NCBI RefSeq assembly: GCF_000717715.1
Contig: NZ_JOAI01000034.1
Coordinates: 32,446-96,445 of the forward strand
Direction of reading: 5' to 3'
DNA length: 64,000 bases
From: Streptomyces sp. NRRL B-24484
GTDB taxonomy: Bacteria; Actinomycetota; Actinomycetes; Streptomycetales; Streptomycetaceae
In this document: positions 5,685 through 64,000 of the stretch, one piece after another
Position numbering within the stretch: position 1 is the first letter of the stretch
Layout: every line of letters starts with the position of its first letter
The notes under the pieces: generated by a model
The model's input: only the letters and a program-made list of their open reading frames with translations
Database searches by the model: none
What the model was told of the DNA's origin: nothing
Translations under genes and position numbers: made by a program

Positions 5685-6080
5685 ATGGGAGCACTTCGCG
5701 ACGAGCACCACAACGGGTGGCTGATGCCCTCCGGCAACTACCCCGCTGCGGTGTACGACGACGCGTGGGACGCCGAGGACACCCTGCCGTCCGTGCCGGC
5801 GCCCGCGGCGAAGATCGTGTCGCTGAAGCCGACCGGCTTCGAGGCGGCCCGCACCGTCGGTGAGCACCTGCGCACCGGCACGCCGGTCGTGATGGACCTC
5901 AGCGAGATGGAGGACCCCGAGGCCAAGCGCATGATCGACTTCGCCTCCGGCCTGGTCTTCGGCACCCGCGGCGGCATCGAGCGGATCGCCCGCCGGGTCT
6001 TCCTGCTCACCCCGCCGGACGTCGAGGTGACGGTGATCGACCGGCCGATCGACAACAGCGGCTTCTACAACCAGAGCTGA
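5685..6080 (+). CDS. SepF-like cell division protein
   Basis: A 131-residue DUF552/SepF-family protein. SepF polymerises and tethers FtsZ to the membrane at division septa. Residues ~42-125 form the core (KIVSLKPTGFEAARTVGEHL, VVMDLSEMEDPEAKRMIDFASG, and a FLLTPPDVEV beta strand). The N-terminus lacks the classical amphipathic membrane helix, and there is no ftsZ or ylmE neighbour. That fits the extra SepF-like (Sfl) paralogues known in Streptomyces rather than the main sepF of the dcw cluster. A strong ribosome site (GGGAGAGGGAGG) precedes the ATG. A stem-loop terminator follows. Confidence 0.88.
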   Translation: MGALRDEHHNGWLMPSGNYPAAVYDDAWDAEDTLPSVPAPAAKIVSLKPTGFEAARTVGEHLRTGTPVVMDLSEMEDPEAKRMIDFASGLVFGTRGGIERIARRVFLLTPPDVEVTVIDRPIDNSGFYNQS

Positions 6081-10039: not shown

Positions 10040-10335
10040 GCATCAGCTCCGGAGGAAACGGGCGGGCATCCGCGTCCCGCCGGGGTCACGGGGGAACGCG
10101 GACACGACGGCGCGCCGGGCACGGTGCCTCGCGCCCCACGGGGCGGCGGCACGGCGGCGCTCATCGGACGGGGCGGCAGCCGCCCTTCCGGTCGTGGTCG
10201 CACATGCGGCCGATCATGTCGGGCGCCGTCCTCCGGGGGCAATCGGTTTTCCGCCGCCTGCCCGGTGCCCGCCCGCTCTCGGCCCGTTCAGGCCGGCGTC
10301 GGCCCGGCGTCGGCCCGGTGGGGCATCCTGCCCGC

Positions 10336-10791
10336 ATGGATCTGCGCGCCGAGTTGTTGCCGCCGCCCGTGCCCGCGGAGCGTCTGGCCGAGCTGAGGGC
10401 GGCGGTCGACGTGATCGCCGATCTCGTCCTGACCTCCGGCCCGGCGGCCGCGCAGGCGGCGGTCGAGGCCTTCGGCAGGGAGACCGGGCACGGTTTCACC
10501 GTCGCCGACTTCGCCGCGTGCGAGGGCGGGCGCGGTGCGCAGGCGCTCGCGCTGGAGGCGGCCCGTCCGGCCCGCCCGGAGGTCCGGGGCACGAGCCGGG
10601 CGGAGACCGTCGAGCTGGTCCGGCGGGTGTGGGCCGCCGGACCTGATGCCGACTGGTACCTCCGGGTGCTGCGGGCGGCCCTGCCGCACCCGCGGCTGCT
10701 CGACCTGCTGTTCCAGTCCCCCGCCGGGCACGCGGCGGCTGCGGAGGACGTGGTGGACGAGGCACTGGCGTACCGGCCGATCGCGCTCTGA
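10336..10791 (+). CDS. hypothetical protein with Nif11-like N-terminal segment
   Basis: A 151-residue protein I do not recognise with confidence. It is rich in helices (LAELRAAVDVIADLVL, RAETVELVRRVWAAG) and ends AEDVVDEALAYRPIAL. The segment AAVEAFGRETGHGFTVADFAA loosely resembles Nif11-type leader or nitrogen-fixation-associated domains (AFxxxxxxxxGxxFTxxDL), but this is a weak likeness. There are no membrane segments. It is convergent with the citrate-synthase-like gene (17-base gap) and divergent from the TPR gene. Confidence 0.55.
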   Translation: MDLRAELLPPPVPAERLAELRAAVDVIADLVLTSGPAAAQAAVEAFGRETGHGFTVADFAACEGGRGAQALALEAARPARPEVRGTSRAETVELVRRVWAAGPDADWYLRVLRAALPHPRLLDLLFQSPAGHAAAAEDVVDEALAYRPIAL

Positions 10792-10808
10792 GACCGGCCG
10801 GCGGGCCG

Positions 10809-11792
10809 TCAGGCGGCGATCGGGACGGGGCGGCGGGTGCGTTTCTGGTCGAGGATGTGGGCGGACCAGTCGGCGGTGCGGCCGCAGATGGCCAGGGCGG
10901 TGAAGAGGTGGACGGGCACGTCGGCGGAGTCGAGCAGGACGGCGGCCCAGTACTCGGGGCCGGCGGTGCCGGTGGCGGGGGTGTCACCGACCTCGGCGAG
11001 GAGTTCGGCGGCGGCCGCCTCCAGGCGGGCCGCGGCCTCGTAGCGCGGGGCGGCCGCCCGCACCACGGCCGCGCGCAGGGCCCTGGCCCGTTGGGCGGCC
11101 GGTCCGGCGGCGGGGGCGGCGAAGAGCGGCCGTGCCTCCCCGCTCACCAGGGCGGCCCGGACCACCGCGCGGGCGTCCGCGCCGTGTTCGGCCTCGGCGA
11201 CCAGCCGGAGCACGGCCGCCGGGACGGTGCGGTGCCGCGGTCCGGCCATCGCGGCGACCGCGGTGGAGAGGCAGGTGGCGACGTCGGCACCGGTGGAGGC
11301 GATCAGCCGGGCCGTGGTGGTGGCGGTGTCGACGGGGTGGACGGCGACGGAGCACCAGTACGCGTCGACGGCGCGGACGTGCTGCGGTTCGGCGGTGCCG
11401 CGCCAGCGCAGCAGGAAGCGTTCGGCGGCGCTGCTGCCGGCCTCGATCGCCCAGTGGGGCACGGCGGGCAGGTGCAGGCCGCGGACGGACTGGGCGACGA
11501 AGGTGTGGGTGGCGATGGTGGCGCGTTCGAGGTCCTCCCGGGCCTGTTCGTCGCCGATGTCGTGCAGCGGGCCGAGTCCCCAGGCGGGGCCGAGGCCGGC
11601 GAGTGAGTTCTGGGTGTCCACCCGGACGTCGCCGTGGCGGACGGGCAGGGTGAGCGGCTCGCCCGGGCCGAGTCCGGGCCAGGGTCTGCCGTCGACGAGG
11701 ATCCCCCAGACCTCGTCGAAGGTGTGACGGCCGATCAGTTCGGTGAGGTCGGGCGCCGGGGCGGTGGGGTCGGGAGCGGTGAGGTCGGACAT
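10809..11792 (-). CDS. degenerate citrate-synthase-like protein
   Basis: A 327-residue member of the citrate synthase superfamily, shorter than the usual 370-430. The alignment register is clear from FDEVWGILVDG, the ADVATCLSTAVAAMAGP block and the C-terminal LFTALAICGRTADWSAHIL. Candidate catalytic positions H152 (AVHPVD), H187 (GPRHRT) and E280 (GPEYWAA) are kept. The GxGHRVY loop that binds oxaloacetate in authentic enzymes is replaced by an Ala/Pro-rich stretch (RPLFAAPAAGPAAQ, 221-234), and GPLHGG reads GPRHRT. It therefore probably uses a different acceptor or is non-catalytic. GAGGAG seven bases upstream supports the ATG. A hairpin separates it from the EamA gene, so it may have its own promoter. 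Confidence 0.8.
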   Translation of the reverse strand: MSDLTAPDPTAPAPDLTELIGRHTFDEVWGILVDGRPWPGLGPGEPLTLPVRHGDVRVDTQNSLAGLGPAWGLGPLHDIGDEQAREDLERATIATHTFVAQSVRGLHLPAVPHWAIEAGSSAAERFLLRWRGTAEPQHVRAVDAYWCSVAVHPVDTATTTARLIASTGADVATCLSTAVAAMAGPRHRTVPAAVLRLVAEAEHGADARAVVRAALVSGEARPLFAAPAAGPAAQRARALRAAVVRAAAPRYEAAARLEAAAAELLAEVGDTPATGTAGPEYWAAVLLDSADVPVHLFTALAICGRTADWSAHILDQKRTRRPVPIAA

Positions 11793-11845
11793 GGGGCGAC
11801 TCCTCGGTGCGGACCGGCTGCTTCGGTCCGGGTGGTGCGGTCCTG

Positions 11846-11870
11846 GTCGTGCAGGGTCGTGCAGGGTCGT
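11846..11870. repeat. 10-bp tandem direct repeat, ~2.5 copies
   Basis: GTCGTGCAGG occurs twice in tandem followed by GTCGT, inside a longer G/T-biased stretch (about 11825-11955) full of GTGGTGC and GTCGTGC variants. It lies upstream of the citrate-synthase-like gene, in its likely promoter or leader region. Confidence 0.6.
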
Positions 11871-12003
11871 TCCTGGCCGTGCGGTGGTGCAGTGGTGCGG
11901 CCGTGCGCTGGAGCGGTCGTGCGGTCGTGGCGGCGGGGGCCGGGTGGTGCGGACCCCGCGGACGCGGCCCCGCTGGCGGGTACCGCGTCCGGGGACGGCT
12001 GAC

Positions 12004-12049
12004 GGGCACCGCCCGCCGCGGGCCGCGAGGGCCGGCGGGGACGGTGCCC
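12004..12049 (-). terminator. stem-loop after the EamA gene
   Basis: GGGCACCG-CCCGCCG pairs with CGGCGGG-ga-CGGTGCCC, a 15-bp stem with a two-base bulge. It lies 22 bases past the EamA stop. It should end or weaken the decarboxylase-ligase-EamA transcript before the citrate-synthase-like gene. Confidence 0.65.
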
Positions 12050-12070
12050 GGGGTGGTGCTCCGGTACGGC

Positions 12071-13096
12071 TCAGCGGCCGACGCCCGCCGACTGTCCGGC
12101 CGGACTGCGCTCGGCCGGTGCGGACGCCGCGGCGGGTGTCGGGACGGCGGCCGGGGCAGGGGCCGCGGCCGCGGCCCGGCGCCGCAGGTAGAGGTTGTTG
12201 AGGACGAGGGCGGACGCGGTGAACAGCGCGCCGACCACCTGCATGCCGGCCGGGATCACCCCGGTCAGCGCGGAGATGGTGAAGGCGGTGATCGGGACGA
12301 CGTCCATGAACAGCACGCCGTTGAGCGGGCCCAGGTTGCGGTTGCCGATGTTCCAGGCGAGCACGCCGCCGAAGCCGGCGATCAGGCTCATGTAGGCGAG
12401 TTCGGGCAGGATCGTGACGACCGCGTGGCCGGTCGGCACCGCGACGGCGCCGGTGGCGAGCAGCACCGCGGTGATGACCACGGCGCTGCCGAGGCCGAGC
12501 ACGGTGGTGACGGTCGTGTACTTGATGGGCGACCAGCTCGGGAAGTAGGTCGCACCGGAGGTGTAGATCACCCAGCAGAGCGCGGCGAAGAGCAGCAGGG
12601 CGTCGGCGCCGAAGTTCTGCGGGGTGTTCACCAGCGAAGCCAGGTCGCCCTTGGTGACGACGAGGATCACGCCGACGAAGGACAGCGCGATGAAGGCGAA
12701 GGACCACTTGGGCGGCACGACCTTGCGCAGCACCCAGTTCACCAGGAAGCCCATCATCGGCATGGTGGCCATCATGATCGAGGCGATCAGCGCGCCCTGC
12801 TCGCCGATCAGGTCCTGGCCGAAGAAGACCAGGAACTGGAAGCCGGCGAATCCGGCGGTGCCGAAGAGCCAGGCGAGGCCGACCCGCTCGCCCTTGAGGC
12901 GCAGCCCGGCGGCGCCCTCCCGGGCGCGCAGGACGACCACGAAGATGAGGCCGGCGATCCCGTAGCGCAGGCAGGTGAAGGTGAAGGGGTCGATGTACTT
13001 CAGCGTCACGTCCATGAGGGGGAACATGGCCCCCCACGAGAGCGTGGCCGCGAGGCACAGCAGGACCCCTCGGGCGTACTTCTTCTGGTCGTTCAC
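12071..13096 (-). CDS. EamA (DMT) family transporter, putative exporter
   Basis: A 341-residue drug/metabolite transporter with two EamA repeats and about ten membrane helices (first repeat from GVLLCLAATLSWGAMFPLM, second from ADALLLFAALCWVIYTSGA). It ends in a ~40-residue Ala/Pro-rich cytoplasmic tail. Family members mostly export amino acids, nucleosides or metabolites. The GTG start is preceded closely by AGGAGAA. It is the third gene of a tight unit behind the decarboxylase and ligase, 52 bases after the ligase stop, so exporting their product is the natural inference. Confidence 0.85.
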   Translation of the reverse strand: MNDQKKYARGVLLCLAATLSWGAMFPLMDVTLKYIDPFTFTCLRYGIAGLIFVVVLRAREGAAGLRLKGERVGLAWLFGTAGFAGFQFLVFFGQDLIGEQGALIASIMMATMPMMGFLVNWVLRKVVPPKWSFAFIALSFVGVILVVTKGDLASLVNTPQNFGADALLLFAALCWVIYTSGATYFPSWSPIKYTTVTTVLGLGSAVVITAVLLATGAVAVPTGHAVVTILPELAYMSLIAGFGGVLAWNIGNRNLGPLNGVLFMDVVPITAFTISALTGVIPAGMQVVGALFTASALVLNNLYLRRRAAAAAPAPAAVPTPAAASAPAERSPAGQSAGVGR

Positions 13097-13148
13097 AGTT
13101 CTCCTGTCAGGGAGTCGGGGTGAGGTGGGGCGGCACGCAGGACGGCGG

Positions 13149-14762
13149 TCATGCCGTCGTCAGCTCCATGCGGTCGGCCTCCGAGGCCGCGTTCTCCTGC
13201 CCGATCAGGTCGAGGACGGTCGACAGCAGCTGCGCGGTGCGCACCTTGCCGGTCGGGCTGTACGGGATCTCGGGGACGGTCACGACGCGCGCGGGCAGCT
13301 GGGGTGCGCGGCGCAGGCACGCGGCGAGGACGGCACGGGAGCCGCTCGCCTCGCGCTCGGGGGAGATGGGGGCGAAGGCCGCGACCAGCGTCGGGCCCTC
13401 GTCGGGGAGGTCGACCTTGAGGACGGCGGTCTCCCGGACGCACGGGAGGCCGGTGAGCTCGTCCTCCAGGGCGAAGATGTTGACGTCCAGCGGGTGCCGG
13501 CCCTCGGCCTTGGTGACGCCGTCGTTGCGGGCGCTGAGCTCGATCCGGCCGCCCTCGTCCATGACGCCGCTGTCGCCGGTGAGCAGGTACTTCTGGGTGC
13601 GGCCGGCGTGCTCGATCATCAGGAACTCGGGCTCGGCGGAGGCGTAGCTGTCCATCAGCTGGTAGCTGGCGATGGCGATCCGGCCGAGCTGCCCCTTCGG
13701 CACCGGGCGGTGCTCCGGGTCGAGGACGAGGATGGTGCTGCCGGGCATCGGACGGCCGGAGCGGGCCGGGGCGACGTGCAGCTCCTCGGGGCCGATCATG
13801 GTGTTGAGGCCGGTCTCGGTGGTGCCGTAGTACAGGTGCAGGACGGGGCCGAGGCGGTCCCAGGTCTGGTTGATGACCCAGCGGTTGAGGTGGCGGCCGC
13901 CGGAGAGCAGGAAGCGCAGCCGGGAGGTCTTGTGCAGGTGCTCGGAGGCCGGGTGCGAGATCAGCCGGTTGAGCACCGGGGGCACCATGAGGGTCGTGGA
14001 GACGCCCTCGGCGACGATGAGCTCGGCCATCTTCTCGGCGTCCTCGTACGGGCTGAGCACGACCGAGCCGCCGAGCGAGAGGAAGATCCGGGCCCAGCCG
14101 GGGCCGGAGGAGTGGTAGAGCGGGACGGTGACCATGTGGACGTCGTCCTCGTCGAAGGAGTACTGGTCCACCAGGTCGGAGAGCCGGCGGGCCTCGAACG
14201 AGGAGTTGCGGATCACCAGCTTCGGGATGCCGCTGGTGCCGGAGGTGAAGGAGAAGGCGGTGAACGGCTGCTCGACGGGTGTGGTCGGGGCCGGCTCGAA
14301 GGCGGCGAGCGCCTGGAAGCAGACGGCGCCGGGCGCGGCCGGGCCGGTGTCGTAGTCGTCCGTCTCCGGGCCGGCCAGGTGGATGCTCAGGACGTCGCGC
14401 GCGCCCGGCCAGCCGGACCGCTCCAGCAGCGGGCGGCGCAGCGGGGTGCTGATGAGCACGGTCGGCTGCAGCTGCTCCAGGGCGCCGGCGGTGGCCTCGG
14501 GGGTGGTCGTGTAGTCGAGGCCTATGCAGGGCACGCCGAGGGTGGCGCAGGCGGCCATCACGACCACCAGCTCCCAGCTGTTGCAGGACATGAAGGCGGC
14601 GCGGGCGGGGCGCTCGGCGGGCAGGTGGTGGGCCAGGCCGGTGGCCACCCGGGCGACCTGCTCGGCGAGTTCGGTCCAGGTGAGGCGGAAGTCGCGGTCC
14701 ACCACGGCCACGTGGTCGGGGCGCCGCGCGGCGTGCTTGCGGATGTCGTCGAGCTTGATCAT
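13149..14762 (-). CDS. AMP-forming carboxylic acid ligase (ANL superfamily)
   Basis: A 537-residue adenylate-forming enzyme. The P-loop TSGTSGIPK lies at 173-181, the A5 region reads YYGTTETG, the TGD aspartate is in LLTGDSGVMDEGGRI, and the hinge is SARNDGVTKAEG. The catalytic lysine K506 sits in YSPTGKVRTAQL. It activates a carboxylic acid as acyl-AMP, ending in a CoA thioester or an amide; no carrier protein or NRPS domain is attached. Only three bases separate it from the decarboxylase stop, so both come from one message. The substrate is unknown. A plausible scheme is joining an acid to the amine made by the decarboxylase (inference). Confidence 0.88.
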   Translation of the reverse strand: MIKLDDIRKHAARRPDHVAVVDRDFRLTWTELAEQVARVATGLAHHLPAERPARAAFMSCNSWELVVVMAACATLGVPCIGLDYTTTPEATAGALEQLQPTVLISTPLRRPLLERSGWPGARDVLSIHLAGPETDDYDTGPAAPGAVCFQALAAFEPAPTTPVEQPFTAFSFTSGTSGIPKLVIRNSSFEARRLSDLVDQYSFDEDDVHMVTVPLYHSSGPGWARIFLSLGGSVVLSPYEDAEKMAELIVAEGVSTTLMVPPVLNRLISHPASEHLHKTSRLRFLLSGGRHLNRWVINQTWDRLGPVLHLYYGTTETGLNTMIGPEELHVAPARSGRPMPGSTILVLDPEHRPVPKGQLGRIAIASYQLMDSYASAEPEFLMIEHAGRTQKYLLTGDSGVMDEGGRIELSARNDGVTKAEGRHPLDVNIFALEDELTGLPCVRETAVLKVDLPDEGPTLVAAFAPISPEREASGSRAVLAACLRRAPQLPARVVTVPEIPYSPTGKVRTAQLLSTVLDLIGQENAASEADRMELTTA

Positions 14763-14765
14763 GCG

Positions 14766-16310
14766 TTACTCCGATGCTGCGGTGGTGGCGGATGCCGTCT
14801 CGGGGGCCGGGGCGGCGGCGGGTTGCGGCTGGTAGAGCGTGTAGATCTCGCTGCCGCTGGCGCGCAGCGCCCGGATCTCGGCGCGGGTCGCGTCGCAGAG
14901 CTTCTCGCCGGGCACGGTGATCGGGATGCCGGGCGGGTAGGCGATGATGAAGTGGTCGGCGCTGTCCTCGTGGAGGGCGGCCGAGGTGGTGCGGTAGGTG
15001 CGCTGGATGACCCGCAGCGCCTCCAGCAGCCGCAGCAGGGTGCCCTCGTCGACCCCGATGTGGACGTGGAAGAGGACGGCGCCGCCGCTCTCCCGGGCCA
15101 CGTACAGGGCGTACTCGTCGAAGAGGATGCGGCGGAAGTCGGCGGCGGTGATGCCGAGGGCCCGGATGTCGACCAGGACGCGGGTCGGGTCGTCGGAGAC
15201 GAGCATCGCCGGGTCGGTGAGGTGGCCCTCGGGGCCGAGGGTGCGGTAGGCGGAGAGCCGGGGGTCGGTGGCTATCTCGGTCCGCAGCGTGCGGGCGAGC
15301 ATCAGCGACCGGTCCAGCAGCGCCTCGCCCTCGTGCTCGGCCTGCAGCCGGGCGAGGTCGAGGCTGGCCAGCACGGGGAAGCTCGGTGAGGTGGTGTGGT
15401 GCTGGAAGAGCGCCTGAGCGGTGCGCTCCTGCGCCTCCCGATCGCCCACGAGGTGCAGGTACGAGCCCTGCCGCAGCGCGGACATCGACTTGTGCGCGGA
15501 GTGCGTGACGGCGACCGTCATGGGCAGTGACGGGTTCTCGGCCCGCAGCTGCTCGACGGCGGCGAGCGCGGTGAGCGGCCGCAGGTGCGGGTGGAAGCGG
15601 TGGATGGCGCCCCACGCCTCGTCGACCAGGACGTTGACGGTCGGGTGGATCCGGGACATCTCGCCGAGCAGCGTCGGCAGGTCGTAGCGGACGCCGTCGT
15701 AGGAGACGGCGGAGAGCACGACGGTGTCGAAGGGGCGGCCCTCGGCGGCGGCCTCGGCGAAGCTGCGCAGCAGCAGCGGCAGGTCGGCGAAGGTGCGCGG
15801 GCAGGTGTCGCAGCAGCGCCGCATGGGGGCGTACTCGACGTCCACGGTGAGCGAGCCGAGGGCGAAGTGCACGGACTGGTGGCAGCTGCGGTCCGCGAGC
15901 ACCCGGCCGCCGGGGCGGGTGAGCGCGGCGAGCGCGACCCGGTTGGCGGTCGAGGTGCCGGCGGAGAGGAAGAGCGTGGTGTCGGCGCCGAAGGTCCGGG
16001 CGGCGAGCCGCTGGGCCTCGCGCAGGGGCCCGTGCGGGCGGAAGAACGAGTCGAGCATGGTGCCGCTGTAGGACACGTCGGCGGCCAGCTGCGCCTGCCC
16101 GAACAGGGCCTCGTACACGGCCTTGGTCCGGGAGTTGAGGATGGACCGGCCGTGCGAGAGCGGCAGGGCGTGGAAGGACGCGATGTCACGTCTGGCCACG
16201 CGCAGGACGGCATCGGCGAGCGGGGTGGCGCTCGGCTCCGGGGGGCCGAGCTCCGACGCGGCCTGCGGGACGGCTTCCGGCCCGAGGGCGGTGCTGCTGG
16301 CTGGGGTCAT
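14766..16310 (-). CDS. PLP-dependent Orn/Lys/Arg decarboxylase-fold enzyme
   Basis: A 514-residue fold-type I PLP enzyme of the Orn/Lys/Arg decarboxylase major-domain family, of the short Gram-positive type. Visible elements are SAGTSTANRVAL (phosphate site), H144 in SCHQSVHFAL (ring stacking), D230 in LVDEAWG, and the Schiff-base lysine K274 in THSAHKSMSALRQGS. The C-terminal domain contains DHFIIAYPPGIPITVPGE. It would make agmatine, cadaverine or putrescine, or act on a related substrate. An odd cysteine cluster (C166, C167, C170) follows the stacking histidine. I chose the ATG at 16310 with GGAG nine bases upstream; the frame opens further to 16412. First gene of the operon. Confidence 0.87.
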   Translation of the reverse strand: MTPASSTALGPEAVPQAASELGPPEPSATPLADAVLRVARRDIASFHALPLSHGRSILNSRTKAVYEALFGQAQLAADVSYSGTMLDSFFRPHGPLREAQRLAARTFGADTTLFLSAGTSTANRVALAALTRPGGRVLADRSCHQSVHFALGSLTVDVEYAPMRRCCDTCPRTFADLPLLLRSFAEAAAEGRPFDTVVLSAVSYDGVRYDLPTLLGEMSRIHPTVNVLVDEAWGAIHRFHPHLRPLTALAAVEQLRAENPSLPMTVAVTHSAHKSMSALRQGSYLHLVGDREAQERTAQALFQHHTTSPSFPVLASLDLARLQAEHEGEALLDRSLMLARTLRTEIATDPRLSAYRTLGPEGHLTDPAMLVSDDPTRVLVDIRALGITAADFRRILFDEYALYVARESGGAVLFHVHIGVDEGTLLRLLEALRVIQRTYRTTSAALHEDSADHFIIAYPPGIPITVPGEKLCDATRAEIRALRASGSEIYTLYQPQPAAAPAPETASATTAASE

Positions 16311-16757
16311 GGGTGTGCACTCCAGAGGGGTATCGGAGCACCCGGGAGAGGGCGTGGGCTGAGTGCCTCGCCCTCCATGAAATAAAACCTTCGCGCCGGT
16401 ATCAAATCTCATCGGGAATTGTGATGACTCGGCGGACTTCCCGCAAGGCGCGCCGGACCGGCGCGCGGTGTACGCATGGGGCGCCAGTGCCCGCCAGAGG
16501 CAGCCGCGGCGGATCCGCGCGCACCCACCGCCGATTCACGCACGTCGCAGCACGGGAACGCGCGCAACCCGGACCGGATCGCCGCCATCGACGCCGCCCG
16601 ACCGGCCTCGTTCCGGCACGGAGGAGTTGACGGACCGCCAATGGTTCGCACTGGAAGTACGATGATCTGCCGAAACGGCGAGGTGGGTGGAGTTCCGCTT
16701 CACCAGGACCGACCGTTCAGTCTGATTCGGACGGGAGCGCCGACCGGAGCCGAGTCG
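16311..16757. other. 447-base intergenic region upstream of the decarboxylase operon
   Basis: No gene is supported here. It should hold the end of the HEAT-like transcript and the promoter of the decarboxylase operon. An AT-richer island (about 16378-16432) reads TTGATA ... TTTATTTCAT on the minus strand and could supply promoter elements. The likely leader contains GAGGGCG/CGCCCTC arms (16348-16354 and 16369-16375). A perfect GCGCGCCGG-a-CCGGCGCGC palindrome lies at 16448-16466 and may be a terminator for the upstream gene. Confidence 0.4.
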
Positions 16758-18116
16758 TCAGACGCCTGCCGCGGCGAGCACGGCCTCCATCCGGGCCCGT
16801 GGCAGCACGGGGTTGGCCGCCGCCGCGTCCGCGACCTCGGGGTCCCGGTCCGCCAGCAGGCGCTCCAGCAGCTCCGCGTCCGTGCGGGGATGCCGGGCCA
16901 CGGCGGCGCGGAGGGACGGCTCCTCGCCGGCGAGCCGCCGCAGCTGCCCGACGGGCAGGTCGGGGACCTTCAGGGCGAGGAGGCGCACCCGCGGGTCCGA
17001 CGCGTCCGTGAAGCCCCGCAGCTCCTGGAGCGGGAGGTTGGGGTGGTCCGCCAGGTACGGCGGGGTGCCGGAGACCTCGCCGTGGGCGCGGAGCAGCCGC
17101 AGGACGACCCGCGGCGGCGCTTCGGGCCGGTGGGCGGCCGCGATGCGCACCGACAGGTCCGGGTCGGCGTCCAGCCGCCGCCAGGCCTCGTCCGGCAGGT
17201 CCCGGCCGGCCGCGAGGACCCGCCGGAACACCGCGTGCGGGCAGTCGAGGTAGGTCAGCCGCTCCGCCAGCGGCGCGTCGCGCAGCCAGCCGGGCTCGTA
17301 CGAGGACCCGTCGAGGGCGACCCGGGCCTCGATGCTGCCGGCCGCCTTCTCGGCCTCGACCCGGGCGAGCAGCCGGTCCCGGAGTTCGGGGGTGACGGGC
17401 CGGCCGTACGCGACCGCGACGCACACGGCCGGGTCGGGGTCGTCCTGCAGTCGGGCCGCCATGCCGGCGGTCAGGTGGGGGTTGCCGGCCACCGCCCGCA
17501 ACACGGTGCGGTCCCCGGTCGCCAGCAGTTCGGCGAACCGGTCGGGTGTCAGGGGGAGACGACCCGCGACCAGGGCCCGGACGGCCGGGTCGGCGAGGCA
17601 GCGTTCGTGGTACTCCGCGGGGACGCCCGGCTGCTGGGCCCCGGCAGCGGCGGCCCGCACCCCGGGGTCCGGGTCGGTGAGCAGCGCCAGGTGCACGGGC
17701 ACCGGCCGGTCCGACCAGGCCCGCGCGACGGCTGCCCGCAGCTTCGGGTCCGGGGCGGCCGCCAGGCGCTCCGGCGGCCGGCCGTACACCTCGACGAGGT
17801 CGTCGATGTCCATCGGCAGCCCGAGCTCCACCCACTCCCGGAGGAGGTCCGCACGGGCGGTGCGGATCGCCGGGTCGGGGTGCTCTGCGATCCGGCGGCG
17901 CATCGCCGCGGAGACCCGCGGCCCGTGCAGGGACACCGCCGCCCTGCTGCCGCCGTGCGTCAGCAGCGCCTCGGCCACCGCGTCCGGCAGCCGCCCCGGA
18001 CGCGTCGCCAGACCGTGCCGGCCCGCCGGGTGCGCGGCCAGCCGCACGAGGACCTGCACCGGAGCGGCCGGATTCCGCGACAGCCCCGACAGGTGCGGCT
18101 GCTCGAGATGAACCAT
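16758..18116 (-). CDS. HEAT/LRV-like repeat protein
   Basis: A 452-residue soluble alpha-solenoid. It is built of ~23-residue repeats with the recurring pattern LxxDPDPxVRxAAA (LALLTDPDPGVRAAAAG, LQDDPDPAVCVAVAYG, LDADPDLSVRIAAAH, LADRDPEVADAAAAN). This resembles leucine-rich repeat variant or HEAT proteins that are common in streptomycetes. No enzyme motif is present, so it is presumably a scaffold or binding protein. The start at 18116 fits the divergent spacing. It is followed by the decarboxylase operon on the same strand after 447 bases, with no visible functional tie. Confidence 0.75.
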   Translation of the reverse strand: MVHLEQPHLSGLSRNPAAPVQVLVRLAAHPAGRHGLATRPGRLPDAVAEALLTHGGSRAAVSLHGPRVSAAMRRRIAEHPDPAIRTARADLLREWVELGLPMDIDDLVEVYGRPPERLAAAPDPKLRAAVARAWSDRPVPVHLALLTDPDPGVRAAAAGAQQPGVPAEYHERCLADPAVRALVAGRLPLTPDRFAELLATGDRTVLRAVAGNPHLTAGMAARLQDDPDPAVCVAVAYGRPVTPELRDRLLARVEAEKAAGSIEARVALDGSSYEPGWLRDAPLAERLTYLDCPHAVFRRVLAAGRDLPDEAWRRLDADPDLSVRIAAAHRPEAPPRVVLRLLRAHGEVSGTPPYLADHPNLPLQELRGFTDASDPRVRLLALKVPDLPVGQLRRLAGEEPSLRAAVARHPRTDAELLERLLADRDPEVADAAAANPVLPRARMEAVLAAAGV

Positions 18117-22270: not shown

Positions 22271-25200
22271 TCAGCCGAGCAGCCGTTCGCGGAGTGCCTC
22301 GGCCTTGCGGAGACCCCGTTCGACGGGCCACGGGACGTCCTCGGCGAGATCGCGGAGCAGCACGACCGCCTCGTCGAGGGCGGCCAGGGCGTCGGCCGAC
22401 TCCACCTCCGTCCCGGCCAGTACCCGGGCGACGGCGAAGCAGTACAGGACGTCGACGAGTTCCAGCGCGTGGGCCCGCGCGTCGAGCGCGACGAACCTCC
22501 GGGCGATCGGCACCGCCTTGGCCGTCACCCGCAGCCCTTCCTCGAAGCGGCCCACCTCGGCGAGCCGCAGGCCCTGCTGGGCCGTCGTAAGACCCAGGCC
22601 GCTGCTCACCGCCTCGGAGTCGGCTTCGGCGAGCCGGCCACTGATGGCGAGGGCCTCGGTGGCGGCCTCCAGGGCCCGGTCGGGATCCGCGGGTTCCACG
22701 GCCAGACAGACGCCGGTCGTGGCCAGGCAGGCGGCGAGCAGCGCCCCGTACCCCGCCTCACCCGCTTCGGCGAGCGGGCGGCACAGCGCCACCGCGCGCT
22801 CCAGGTGGGGCAGCGCCTCGTCGCGCCGTTCCAGGTCGGCCAGCACCGAGCCGGCGGCCAGCCCGGCCAGTACCCGTGCCACGGTCCGGAACGGGACGGT
22901 CTCGGGCAGGCGTTCCGCTCCAGCGACCGATGCGGTGACGAACGCCTCGGCCTCGTCCGGGCGGCCCAGCATGAGCAGGAGGAACCCGCGGGTGCGGCGG
23001 GCCAGGTCCAGGACGGGCTCGTGGGGAGCCGCCTCCTCGGCCGTCAGGCGCCCTCGACAGTCCTCGGCCTGATCCAGGACTGCCAGCGCCTCGGCCGGAC
23101 GCAGCCGGGTCAGCAGGACCTCGGCCAGCGAGCCCGACTCGGTGACGACGGCCACCTGCTCGACGACGCCCCCGCGCTCGGCCAGCCGACGGCGGACGGT
23201 GACGGCCTCACGCGCCGCCGCCTCGGCCTCGCCGTACCGCGCCAGCCTCGGCAGCAGGTTCCTCACCTGGGCCAGCGCGGCCGCCAACCGGTCGCCGTAG
23301 CGTTCCGGGTCGTCCTGTGCGAGGTCCCGCAGCACGTCCGCGGCCTCCGCGGCGGCCTCGGCCGCCTCGCGCCGCCTCCCGGCGCAGAAGGCGAAGGCGC
23401 CGAGCAACTCGAGCATGTCGACCAGCTCGGACGGCCCCGTCGACGACGGCGACCCGGCGTTCCGACGGGCCAGGCGCACAGCCCTCCGCAGCGGCGCGAC
23501 GGCCTCGTCGGGGCGGCCGAGCGCATCGAGGCACATGGCACGGCCGATCAGCAGCTCGATCACCACCGGGTAGAGCGCCTCGGTGGCGCCGGCGTAGCAC
23601 GCGAGCACCGTGTCGAGGAGCTCCAGCGCCTCGCCTGCCCGATCCGCAGTGACCAGCATGCAGCGAAGGTTCCGCAGCAGACCGGCGAAGTTCCGGGCGA
23701 TCGTGCGGGGCTGTGTCCTGGTGAGATCGTGGTAGGCGCCCGCCGCTTCCACGGCGGCGGTGATCGCGGCCTCCGCCCGGCCGTCCGCGGCGGACCAGGA
23801 AGCCAGTGTGGCGAGGCCCATCGCCCGGGACGACGCGAAGACGGCCGGGTGCTCGTCGTACAGCTCGGTGTAGATGCGTGCGGCTTCGCCGGCCGCCGCC
23901 AGTGCTCCTGCAGTGTCTCCGCAGTCCCCGCACTGGTTCGCCAGGGTGTTGAGCGACATGGCCAGCTCGTCGCGGTGACCGTCCCGCTGCGCGACGACCT
24001 CCCGGAAGAGCGCGACGGACCTAGCAGCGGCCTCCACCGCCTCCTCGCTCTGCCCGAGTTCGCCGAGGTCGGTCGCGAGGGAGTTCCGGGACCGGGCGAG
24101 TGAGGGCCGGTACATCTCGGGAAGTTCCCGGTACAGGCGCTCGCGGATCCCGATCACCCTCCGGGTCAGCAGCACCGCCTTGCGCCGGTCGCGCATCCGG
24201 CCGTGACAGTCGGCCAGGGTCCCCAATGCCATGGCCAGATCGGGGTCGTAGCCGTCCGGGTGCCGCTCGGCGAGCGGCTCGCACACCGCAACGGCCTCGG
24301 CAGCCGCATCGAGGGCCTCGCGGAAGTGGCCGACGGCGTTCAGCCGGATGGCGAGGTTGTTCAGGCGCAGCACGAGATCACCGGCGGCGCCGGGCACCTC
24401 GGCCAGGACGAGCCTGCGCTGGACGGCCACCGCCTCGGCCATGCTCTCCAGCGCCTCCGCGTGCAGGCCGAGGTCGCTCTGGGCCGACGACAGGACGCCA
24501 AGGGCGACGGCCAGTTGGTTGTGGGCACTGTCAGGGCCGGGATCGCCCGCCACCACGGAACGGTAGTGGGCGACCGCCTCGCCGGCCGGCCCCAGTGCCT
24601 CGCTGCGCCTCCCCACGGCGCCGAGGCAGCCCGACTTGTTGGTCAGTGCGGCCGCCAGGGGCACCCGGACGGCCTCCGGGTGGCTCGCCAGCAACGGTTC
24701 GAGCAGTTCCACGGCCTTCGCCGCGGCCGCCAGCGCGTCCGCGGGCCTGCCCGCATCGATGAGCCGGCCGGCCAGGCGCCGGTGCTCGACGCCCAGGGCG
24801 ATTCCGTCCTCGGCACTCCCGTTCCCGGCAGCCGTACGCAGCCGGATCATACGCTCGGTCAGGTTGACCGCCCACGGAACGAGCACGTGCGAACTGCGCG
24901 GCAGGTGGGCCGCCAGCACCTCCAGTACCGCCAGTGGGGTCTCCGGGGAATCGACCCGCTGCTGCAGGGCGTCCACCAGCGGCTGCGGCCGCTCCACCTG
25001 GGTGGCCACGTCCATGGTGGCCGTCCCGAGCCGTCCGACGTGACGGACACACAGATCGGTGATCAGGTCGTCGAGCGTGCCGAGCAGCGGCGGGTGTGCG
25101 GCAGCACGGGCGAGCACCGTGAGCGCCCGGACCGACATCCGGCCGGGCTCCACCTCGGCGAGCAGACTGTCGACGAACTCGGGGTCGGAGAGGACGTGCC

Positions 25201-26956
25201 GGCCCACGAAGCGCTCGGCCAGCCGGTCGGGCTGCAGGACCTCCCAGGGGTCCGTGAAAGCCACTGGGTAGACGGTGTTGACCCAGTCCCGGACCGGCCG
25301 CATCTCGTGCGCACGCAGCTCCGCCAGGACCGGCACCCGGCGCAGCAGCGCGTCCCGCTCCTTCCCACCGAGGGAGGTACCTCCCAGGAGGGCAACAGCG
25401 GCGATGGCGTCCTCGGGCGCGCTGCTCTCGCCCAGCCGGAACGGAAGTGGTCGCTCCTGCTCGACCTGGGACCAGTAGAGTTGCTCGTGGTCGAGGATAC
25501 GGTCCTCGGCGTCCTTCCCCTCCTCGTCGGCATCCCGCTCGGCGCGGTCCACGGCGCCGGTACCGGTGTCCAGGAGGTCGGCCAGTGCCGTCATGTGCAG
25601 TGTCAGCACGTTGCCCGACGTGAGCGCCGACGGCGATGGTGTGGGAAGGGCGTTCGCGCGTGCCGTCCAGGTCTCGTCCGCCGGCGTTCCCTCCGGGTCG
25701 ACCAGGCGCCCGGCGAAGGCGGTCAGCGCCTGCCGGTAGAGGAGTTCGCGCGTCGCCCGGTCGGACGCCAGCACCGGTAGTTCGTCGACCCGGGCCTGGC
25801 GCAGCGCGGCGCCGTCACGCGCGTCCTTCGCCGATCCCCACCAGCTGCCCGCCGTTCGGGCGAGGAGCAGCACCTTGAGGGGCACGTGGCCGCGGTGGAG
25901 CCACCCGGCCTCCAACAGGCCCGACAGTTGGTCCCGCCTCGCCTCGGCGTAGTCGAGGACCACCAGCATGGGCTTCACCGTGTGCTGCAGCTCGGCCGAC
26001 AGGTCTTCGGACCGGGCGGTCGGGTTCGGCCACAGAACCGTCCAGTTCGGGTCGTCCTTCGACAGGAGTTCCTCCAGGCGGGCGGCCAGCCTGGTCTTGC
26101 CCTGGCCGCCCGGGCCGTGGATCAGACGGACGCCGAAGCCCGGAGGTTCGCACCACGTCCGGAGGTGTTCGAGGATCTCCTCTCGACCGTGGAAGCCCAC
26201 GACCTCCCGGCTGGCCCTCAACAGGCCGGCGGGCGGCAGCGGCCCGATCGACGGTCCGGGGGCGTCAGTACGGCGCAGCCGGTCGAACTCCGCCTGGCCG
26301 AGGGTGGAGGAGTCGGCCCCGTGATCCTCCAAGGCCTTCAGGAAGCTCTTGTCGGCGTGCAGCACGTAGGCCGGGACGATCTCCAGCAGGCCGTGGCCGA
26401 ACTCGGGCGCTTCCGCCTTGATGACGCCGATCAGCAGTCCGCCACTCGTCACGGCCGCGCCGGACAGTCCGGCCCACGGCAGTTCGGCGTCATCGCCGGC
26501 GGGGAGCAACGGATGATCGGCGAGGGCGAGGAAGTACCGGTTGCTCACGTAGCCGGTACCCGGGTTGACGGTGCCCACCAGTTGCATGGTCTCGACGGGA
26601 ACGCGGCGCTGCTTCGGCCGTCCCGGGATCTGGATGGCGCGCGGGACGCCCCAGGTCTCGCACCGCTGCCCGGGACGCATGGTCGCCATCCGCCCCCACG
26701 ACTCGGCCCGGGCCGGGGGCTCCTGCCATGTGGGGTCCTCGATGCGCAGCAGGGCCGCGTCGTCACGGCCCTCGGGCGTGCCGCGCCACACGACGTGCGC
26801 GTCGTGGTGCGGTTGGTGGCCCGGTCGCCACACCCGCACGGTCTGTCCCACCGGTCCAACGCCGTGGGCGGAGGCGAGCACGAGGCGCGGACCGATCGCG
26901 TACCCGCTGCTCCTGCTCTTCCCGTTCTGCACCGCGACCAGACGTGACTCGTCCAT
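22271..26956 (-). CDS. trypsin-like protease/STAND NTPase/TPR fusion, predicted immunity protein
   Basis: A 1561-residue three-part protein. Residues 1-~205 are a trypsin-like serine protease with intact triad: H31 (LASAHGVG), D65/D66 (GRDDAALLRI) and S165 (GLSGAAV). Residues ~250-600 are a STAND-type NTPase with Walker A GPGGQGKT (281-288) and Walker B LVVLDYAEAR (331-340). The remaining ~850 residues are tandem TPR-like repeats (AGRPADALAAAAKAVELLEPL, LGQSEEAVEAAARSVALFREV and many more). There is no signal peptide. In this architecture repeats sense a trigger, the NTPase oligomerises and the protease is the effector. It sits 51 bases downstream of a Trypco2-like gene, its known genomic partner class. 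The trigger and target are unknown. Confidence 0.88.
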   Translation of the reverse strand: MDESRLVAVQNGKSRSSGYAIGPRLVLASAHGVGPVGQTVRVWRPGHQPHHDAHVVWRGTPEGRDDAALLRIEDPTWQEPPARAESWGRMATMRPGQRCETWGVPRAIQIPGRPKQRRVPVETMQLVGTVNPGTGYVSNRYFLALADHPLLPAGDDAELPWAGLSGAAVTSGGLLIGVIKAEAPEFGHGLLEIVPAYVLHADKSFLKALEDHGADSSTLGQAEFDRLRRTDAPGPSIGPLPPAGLLRASREVVGFHGREEILEHLRTWCEPPGFGVRLIHGPGGQGKTRLAARLEELLSKDDPNWTVLWPNPTARSEDLSAELQHTVKPMLVVLDYAEARRDQLSGLLEAGWLHRGHVPLKVLLLARTAGSWWGSAKDARDGAALRQARVDELPVLASDRATRELLYRQALTAFAGRLVDPEGTPADETWTARANALPTPSPSALTSGNVLTLHMTALADLLDTGTGAVDRAERDADEEGKDAEDRILDHEQLYWSQVEQERPLPFRLGESSAPEDAIAAVALLGGTSLGGKERDALLRRVPVLAELRAHEMRPVRDWVNTVYPVAFTDPWEVLQPDRLAERFVGRHVLSDPEFVDSLLAEVEPGRMSVRALTVLARAAAHPPLLGTLDDLITDLCVRHVGRLGTATMDVATQVERPQPLVDALQQRVDSPETPLAVLEVLAAHLPRSSHVLVPWAVNLTERMIRLRTAAGNGSAEDGIALGVEHRRLAGRLIDAGRPADALAAAAKAVELLEPLLASHPEAVRVPLAAALTNKSGCLGAVGRRSEALGPAGEAVAHYRSVVAGDPGPDSAHNQLAVALGVLSSAQSDLGLHAEALESMAEAVAVQRRLVLAEVPGAAGDLVLRLNNLAIRLNAVGHFREALDAAAEAVAVCEPLAERHPDGYDPDLAMALGTLADCHGRMRDRRKAVLLTRRVIGIRERLYRELPEMYRPSLARSRNSLATDLGELGQSEEAVEAAARSVALFREVVAQRDGHRDELAMSLNTLANQCGDCGDTAGALAAAGEAARIYTELYDEHPAVFASSRAMGLATLASWSAADGRAEAAITAAVEAAGAYHDLTRTQPRTIARNFAGLLRNLRCMLVTADRAGEALELLDTVLACYAGATEALYPVVIELLIGRAMCLDALGRPDEAVAPLRRAVRLARRNAGSPSSTGPSELVDMLELLGAFAFCAGRRREAAEAAAEAADVLRDLAQDDPERYGDRLAAALAQVRNLLPRLARYGEAEAAAREAVTVRRRLAERGGVVEQVAVVTESGSLAEVLLTRLRPAEALAVLDQAEDCRGRLTAEEAAPHEPVLDLARRTRGFLLLMLGRPDEAEAFVTASVAGAERLPETVPFRTVARVLAGLAAGSVLADLERRDEALPHLERAVALCRPLAEAGEAGYGALLAACLATTGVCLAVEPADPDRALEAATEALAISGRLAEADSEAVSSGLGLTTAQQGLRLAEVGRFEEGLRVTAKAVPIARRFVALDARAHALELVDVLYCFAVARVLAGTEVESADALAALDEAVVLLRDLAEDVPWPVERGLRKAEALRERLLG

Positions 26957-40163: not shown

Positions 40164-41345
40164 CTAGTACGAGCGGGGCAGGCCGAGGGTGTGTTGGGCG
40201 ACGTAGTTGAGGACCATCTCGCGGCTGACCGGGGCGACCCGGCCGACGCGGGTGACGGTGAGGAGGGCGGCGAGGCCGTACTCCTGGGTGAGGCCGTTGC
40301 CCCCGAGGGTCTGGACGGCCTGGTCGACGGCCCGGCAGGCGGCCTCCGCCGCGGCGTACTTGGCCATGTTGGCGGCCTCGCCCGCGCCCGGGTCGTCCCC
40401 GGCGTCGTACAGGTGGGCGGCCTTCTGGGTCATCAGCCGGGCGAGTTCGACCTCGATGGCGCACTGGGCGAGCGGGTGGGCGATCCCCTGGTGGGCGCCG
40501 ATCGGGGTGTCCCAGACGGTGCGGGTGCGGGCGTAGTCGACGGCGGTGTCGAGCGCACGGCGGGCGGCGCCGATGGAGAACGCCGCGGTCATGATCCGTT
40601 CGGGGTTGAGGCCGGCGAAGAGCTGCAGCAGGCCCGCGTCCTCGTCGCCGACCAGGGCGTCGGCGGGCAGCCGGACGTCGTCCAGGAAGACCTGGAACTG
40701 CTTCTCGGCGGCGACCAGCTCCATCGGGATGGCCCGGTACTCGAAGCCGGGGGTGTCGCGGGGGACGACGAAGAGCGAGGGCCGCAGCCGCCCGGTGCGG
40801 GCGTCCTCGGTGCGGGCGACGAAGAGCACGGCGTCGGCGTGGTCGATGCCGGAGATGAAGACCTTGCGGCCGGTGAGGAGCCAGTCCTCGCCGTCGCGGC
40901 GGGCGACGGTGGATATCCGGTGGGAGTTGGAGCCGGCGTCGGGTTCGGTGATGCCGAAGGCCATCCGGCGGGTGCCGTCGGCGAGTCCGGGCAGCCAGCG
41001 GCGGCGCTGTTCCTCGGTGCCGTAGCGGGCGATGACGGTGCCGCAGATGGCGGGTGAGACGACGAGCATCAGCAGCGGGCAGCCGCCGGCGCCGAGCTCT
41101 TCGAGGACGATGGCGAGTTCGGTGATGCCGGCGCCCCCGCCGCCGTACTCGGCGGGCAGGTTGACGCCGAGGTAGCCGAGCTTGCCGGCTTCGGCCCACA
41201 GTTCGTCGGCGTACTCGCCGGCGCGGGCCTTGGCCTGGAACCAGGCGGGGCCGAAGCGGGCGGCGAGGTCGGCGACGGCCCGGCGCAGGGCCTGCTGTTC
41301 GGGGGTCTCGACGAGGGTGCCTGCGGTGGTGCGCGGTGCGGACAT
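40164..41345 (-). CDS. acyl-CoA dehydrogenase
   Basis: A 393-residue flavoprotein that introduces the alpha-beta double bond in an acyl-CoA. Family signatures are FGITEPDAGSNSHRIS for FAD binding, the mid-domain TGRKVFISGIDHAD, and the C-terminal helical domain with RTVWDTPIGAHQGIAHPLAQC and QTLGGNGLTQEYGLA. It is the last gene of the operon that starts with atuA, 51 bases after the carboxylase alpha stop. In acyclic-terpenoid or leucine-type pathways the dehydrogenase acts just before the carboxylase, on citronellyl-CoA or isovaleryl-CoA respectively. The exact acyl group is not decidable here. Confidence 0.92.
   Translation of the reverse strand: MSAPRTTAGTLVETPEQQALRRAVADLAARFGPAWFQAKARAGEYADELWAEAGKLGYLGVNLPAEYGGGGAGITELAIVLEELGAGGCPLLMLVVSPAICGTVIARYGTEEQRRRWLPGLADGTRRMAFGITEPDAGSNSHRISTVARRDGEDWLLTGRKVFISGIDHADAVLFVARTEDARTGRLRPSLFVVPRDTPGFEYRAIPMELVAAEKQFQVFLDDVRLPADALVGDEDAGLLQLFAGLNPERIMTAAFSIGAARRALDTAVDYARTRTVWDTPIGAHQGIAHPLAQCAIEVELARLMTQKAAHLYDAGDDPGAGEAANMAKYAAAEAACRAVDQAVQTLGGNGLTQEYGLAALLTVTRVGRVAPVSREMVLNYVAQHTLGLPRSY

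Positions 41346-61516: not shown

Positions 61517-64000
<2,484 letters not shown>

Follow-up and report, generated by a model that had tools for sequence, protein, structure and literature searches.

Organization of the locus

In the 64,000-nucleotide stretch of DNA analysed here (the window), four genes on the minus strand occupy positions 10809–16310 in the order decarboxylase, ligase, EamA exporter and citrate-synthase relative, with intergenic gaps of 3, 52 and 278 bases (Table 1). The coordinates and the profile matches agree with the earlier note, which had described four same-strand genes with the decarboxylase and the ligase three bases apart and the exporter close by. Its reading of the region as a small-molecule locus without PKS or NRPS genes, in which an amine-making decarboxylase, an acid-activating ligase and an exporter would act together, is also supported. 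The genome to which the window belongs comprises 8.86 Mb in 186 contigs.

Table 1 Genes and upstream elements of the four-gene locus, in window coordinates.
Feature	Position	Strand	Evidence
PLP-dependent decarboxylase, Orn/Lys/Arg fold, GbnA-like, 514 aa	14766..16310	-	OKR_DC_1 174 bits
Class I adenylate-forming ligase, GbnB-like, 537 aa	13149..14762	-	PF00501 (AMP-binding) 190.6 bits
EamA-family (DMT) exporter, GbnC-like, 341 aa	12071..13096	-	PF00892 73.3 bits
Citrate-synthase-2 paralogue lacking the catalytic loop GFGHRVY, 327 aa	10809..11792	-	PF00285 (Citrate_synt) 111.8 bits
Operator-like site ATACCGGCGCGAAGGT, 2 mismatches to the Streptomyces palindrome ATACCTTCNNGAAGGT	16387..16402	-	mismatch count
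Promoter-like stretch TTGATA-16 nt-ATTTCA, overlapping the operator-like site	16378..16405	-	inferred by eye; conserved

The decarboxylase starts at an ATG at 16310 with GGAG upstream, and its score for the Orn/Lys/Arg decarboxylase fold (PF01276) stands far above the cut-off of 27 bits. It contains a THSAHK motif in which S271, H273 and K274 are invariant across 40 sequences, and we take the lysine of this motif to be the PLP-binding residue. None of the named lysine, ornithine or arginine decarboxylase families of NCBIfam was matched above its cut-off, the best score being 124 bits against 968, and close relatives of the protein are labelled arginine decarboxylase in the databases. A second gene of the Orn/Lys/Arg decarboxylase fold (138.9 bits) is found in the window's genome near the end of a contig (G000:C15:376-1092).

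For the ligase, an identity as malonyl-CoA synthetase was considered and rejected: the nearest chains of solved structure are of that type, yet they match at just 97 bits. In the printed alignment, the ligase does not retain the arginine that presumably marks the substrate site of malonyl-CoA synthetases. A single protein of Photobacterium halotolerans combines ligase and EamA exporter, with 34% and 36% identity to the window ligase and EamA protein, respectively, and this fusion supports a joint function of the two. The database search showed the fusion in P0166 and P0168, with Photobacterium among their sources.

Elsewhere in the window, the minus strand at 22271–26956 encodes a TPR-repeat protein of 1561 aa whose match to STAND NTPases stays below the threshold (29.2 bits against 34). 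The plus strand at 5751–6080 encodes a cell division protein of the SepF family (82.1 bits), with no division cluster near it among the regions inspected.

Relation to the gaburedin genes of Streptomyces venezuelae

The earlier note knew of no described pathway with this set of genes. However, the trio of decarboxylase, ligase and exporter matches the gaburedin genes gbnABC of Streptomyces venezuelae, a cluster to which the literature assigns GABA-derived ureas. For S. venezuelae NRRL B-65442, the published description gives a chromosome of 8,222,198 bases with the gaburedins at 4,520,077–4,530,222. Another paper lists three gaburedin genes and, next to them, two butyrolactone genes. One Streptomyces genome, which we took for S. 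venezuelae, consists of a single 8,223,505-base chromosome and has its decarboxylase match at C1:4520631-4522148, that is, at the published gaburedin coordinate; the stretch L070 has the published order, gaburedin genes and then butyrolactone genes.

Compared with the S. venezuelae-like genes, the window proteins show identities of 81% for the decarboxylase, 64% for the ligase (335/520) and 77% for the EamA protein (236/306). Proteins labelled S. venezuelae in the database gave the same values for the decarboxylase (P0015, 81%) and the ligase (P0132, 64%). The window cluster is of the gaburedin type in that its decarboxylase, ligase and third gene adjoin one another, follow the same order and are orthologous to those of the S. 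venezuelae locus.

According to a review, gbnABC were discovered through deletion of the repressor gene gbnR, whose product represses them, and deletion of gbnB abolished the gaburedins. In one Streptomyces, compounds were reportedly identified by LC-MS as gaburedins although its authors could not find gbnA and gbnB, so that the gene set and the product do not strictly correspond. Our literature search returned nothing linking gaburedin to Kitasatospora, nothing linking gaburedin to a decarboxylase, and nothing joining Kitasatospora, citrate synthase, decarboxylase, biosynthetic gene cluster and EamA; one paper mentions both gaburedin and citrate synthase.

Distribution and gene neighbourhoods

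The distribution of the cluster was followed in 70 genomes of the window's genus, here called Kitasatospora after the name borne by several of its members, and the decarboxylase was also searched for in 392 Streptomyces genomes. A close decarboxylase (81–100% identity) is present in five of the 70 genus genomes: that of the window, G022 (taken for K. paranensis), G038 (taken for Streptomyces sp. TLI_235), G049 (taken for Kitasatospora sp. DSM 101779) and G057 (Kitasatospora sp. MAP5-34-like). Eight further genus genomes have matches at 31–36% identity, which we took for general members of the decarboxylase fold. The Streptomyces sample yielded 11 genomes with a close decarboxylase, ten at 77–80% and one at 60%, and the distribution of the cluster is thus patchy in both genera. 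The earlier note had allowed that the decarboxylase might turn out to be the ordinary polyamine enzyme of the genus; with a close copy in 5/70 genomes, this did not prove to be the case.

The other refuting outcome named in the note, homologous neighbourhoods in which the genes part company, did not occur either. In a first set of 14 loci, the decarboxylase and the ligase adjoin in every case, the EamA gene follows in 12, and the citrate-synthase gene is present in two, both from Kitasatospora. In a set of 13 Streptomyces stretches, which has several genomes in common with the first so that the counts of the two are not additive, the decarboxylase and the ligase occur together in 12, EamA in ten and the citrate-synthase gene in none. 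The association of the locus genes is beyond chance. The citrate-synthase relative was also correctly proposed to be linked to the trio, but within the window's genus only: it follows the trio in each of the five genus genomes that carry a close decarboxylase, in three different surroundings, as against 0/13 Streptomyces stretches.

Ten of the 13 Streptomyces stretches, the same ten that have EamA, carry a cassette of AfsA and ArpA-type genes together with a HAD gene, a second TetR gene and an acyl-CoA-dehydrogenase-like gene. In L079 and L082, also from Streptomyces, the decarboxylase and the ligase are present and the cassette is absent. These two stretches, like L011 and L015, have a decarboxylase–ligase pair and no EamA gene inside the stretch fetched; in L011 and L015 the pair adjoins ftsE/ftsX- and smpB-like genes, as read by eye from the translations. 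In the protein database, more distant decarboxylases and ligases (about 38–50% identity) come from contigs of equal length in four cases (241631, 4740, 6192 and 3701), a hint, short of proof, that they lie side by side.

An empty site was sought through two flanking genes, hyp438 (33/70 genomes) and that of a pentapeptide protein (16/70). In six hyp438 regions, the other genes of the window neighbourhood were at most weakly similar, and hence no clean empty site was found.

An altered citrate-synthase paralogue

The fourth gene starts at an ATG at 11792 behind a strong, ribosome-binding-site-like GAGGAG. By fold and by sequence family, its product belongs to citrate synthase 2 (CitA). The catalytic motifs of citrate synthase are GPxHGG, GFGHRVY and NVEFW. 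All three are altered in the window copy, which keeps the His of the first and an acid at the third and has lost the second; judged by its motifs, the protein does not appear to be an active citrate synthase. The condensation that the earlier note had envisaged for it becomes less likely because the window copy has no GFGHRVY loop.

This gene is distinct from the resident citrate-synthase copy, a separate gene at 48–50% identity that is found in the 70 genus genomes. The second copy is restricted to 5/70, exactly those with the close decarboxylase, and on these grounds we rejected the explanation that a resident gene of the genus lies near the trio by chance. The GFGHRVY loop has been lost in four of the five linked copies (window, G022, G038 and G049). 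The fifth, that of G057, retains the catalytic motifs and is sister to the four altered copies; at 55% identity, it was absent among the 120 proteins listed in the protein search.

The altered gene could be a functionless, decaying passenger retained by linkage only. In favour of this are the loss of the catalytic loop, the 278-base gap before the gene and its faster change: the pairwise dN/dS of the four altered copies (0.145–0.465) exceeds that of the resident paralogue (0.034–0.213), so that slow decay would also fit. Against this stand dN/dS values below 1 with bootstrap upper limits of at most 0.62, reading frames that are open in all four altered copies, the persistence of the gene beside the trio in three surroundings, its strong ribosome-binding-site-like GAGGAG, and a predicted structure in which the altered copy retains the citrate-synthase fold. 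We consider the passenger explanation rather unlikely and favour a role under constraint other than the making of citrate.

Promoter region and regulators

Upstream of the decarboxylase gene, the exact palindrome ATACCTTCNNGAAGGT is found in 11/15 Streptomyces stretches and, with one mismatch, in one; the three stretches without the cassette or EamA have five to seven mismatches, one of these three being mostly N. These matches are circular, since the same upstream sequences supplied the pattern. The space between the ArpA-type and AfsA genes is independent of the source of the pattern, and it contains the palindrome with at most one mismatch in 11 of 11 stretches where both genes occur.

In the genus, the site preceding the decarboxylase has two mismatches in three genomes, one in G022 and four in G057, a level also reached by 25 of 200 shuffles. 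Genome-wide, the palindrome with up to two mismatches has 16 forward and 21 reverse matches, compared with 10 and 9 for the reversed control. With matches this numerous, the window site is not significant alone, and its weight lies in its fixed position before the gene. The promoter of the window decarboxylase appears to carry a partly decayed copy of the Streptomyces palindrome. A strict consensus scan for promoters and terminators over 10300–17000 found nothing.

None of the queries AfsA, ArpA-type TetR, HAD and second TetR matched the window at E 1e-5, and the acyl-CoA-dehydrogenase-like query gave a 28% match at 40383–41159, 24 kb away. AfsA-family genes are located elsewhere in the window's genome, on contigs C5 and C42. 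The region C42:63310–73650 contains one of them at C42:68028–68909, together with exact palindromes at 63310 and 73635; a further site, at 69088, differs by one mismatch. This combination of an AfsA-family gene and two exact palindromes raises the possibility of trans-acting control, and a signalling system at C42 may act on the window cluster.

Proposed function

Orthology, gene order, linkage, motif loss and constraint are established for the locus. From these sequence features, we think it likely that the first three genes form a gbnABC-type operon for the synthesis and export of gaburedin-like ureas, joined in this genus by a citrate-synthase-2 gene. The published gaburedin proposal reportedly runs from decarboxylation of glutamate to GABA, through urea formation by the ligase, to export by EamA. 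In the window cluster, GbnA would convert glutamate to GABA by decarboxylation; GbnB would spend ATP on activating an amine that bears a carbonyl, probably an amino acid in N-carboxylated form, and would link GABA to a second amino acid via a urea; and GbnC, the EamA protein, would export the product. After its acquisition by the cluster of the window's genus, the citrate-synthase-2 gene would have lost part of its active site in most lineages. Most probably the fourth protein has ceased to make citrate and acts as a partner in binding or regulation, for instance by sensing a keto acid or acyl-CoA tied to glutamate supply.

More tentatively, a citrate synthase may have been recruited, deprived of its catalytic machinery and kept as a pseudoenzyme that gates the ligase by sensing a keto acid or acyl-CoA, or it may perform a new reaction that alters the product. 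The MAP5-34-like genome would then represent the state before the loss.

The fold family predicted for the decarboxylase is that of Orn/Lys/Arg decarboxylases, not the usual glutamate decarboxylase family, and this counts against the gaburedin reading. So do the AfsA/ArpA-type cassette, for which the window gave no match, and the Streptomyces with reported gaburedins in which gbnA and gbnB could not be found. The ligase, at 64% identity, is the member of the trio least conserved with S. venezuelae, so that its partners may differ, and the fourth gene is limited to the window's genus. The fold, the ligase divergence and the fourth gene would suit a related but different product, in which some other amine (derived from Lys, Orn, Arg or a further source) is coupled to some other acid and the fourth protein assists in selecting or producing the partner; given decarboxylase and exporter identities of 81% and 77% to the S. 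venezuelae-like genes, we regard such a product as unlikely. An ordinary polyamine or acid-resistance decarboxylase beside unrelated genes, as its weak similarity to the lysine and arginine decarboxylase families of NCBIfam and the database name of its close relatives might suggest, is extremely improbable, being already contradicted by the fixed ligase neighbour, and NCBIfam scores far under the cut-offs and the occurrence of a close copy in just 5/70 genus genomes led us to reject the ordinary polyamine enzyme.

The trio is a known kind of cluster, and what is new is the linked, altered and maintained citrate-synthase paralogue in the window's genus. A gaburedin-type operon, our preferred reading, would extend a urea pathway that uses neither PKS nor NRPS to a second genus and to another regulatory context. 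The graded series from intact motifs (G057) to lost ones (G022, G038, G049 and the window) would capture a metabolic enzyme changing its role inside a biosynthetic cluster.

Comparison with known systems

The nearest known counterparts are two proteins of Mycobacterium tuberculosis and, for the cluster as a whole, gbnABC of S. venezuelae. Rv2531c, a putative amino acid decarboxylase of M. tuberculosis, has a chain of 933–947 aa, compared with 514 aa for the window decarboxylase. Citrate synthase 2 (CitA) has a solved structure from M. tuberculosis; GFGHRVYR is present in 114 of its 117 listed relatives (P0181–P0297) and absent in the window copy.

The cassette of AfsA, ArpA-type TetR, HAD and second TetR genes, which is associated with gaburedin-type clusters in Streptomyces but does not define them, has no match in the window. 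Compared with S. venezuelae, the operator-like site of the window has two mismatches, and the ATG of the decarboxylase is shifted downstream by about 70 bases and follows a ribosome-binding-like site. The three genes of S. venezuelae gbnABC recur in the window with order and direction unchanged, and a related operator-like palindrome precedes the first of them. A further difference is the fourth gene of the window, the altered citrate synthase.
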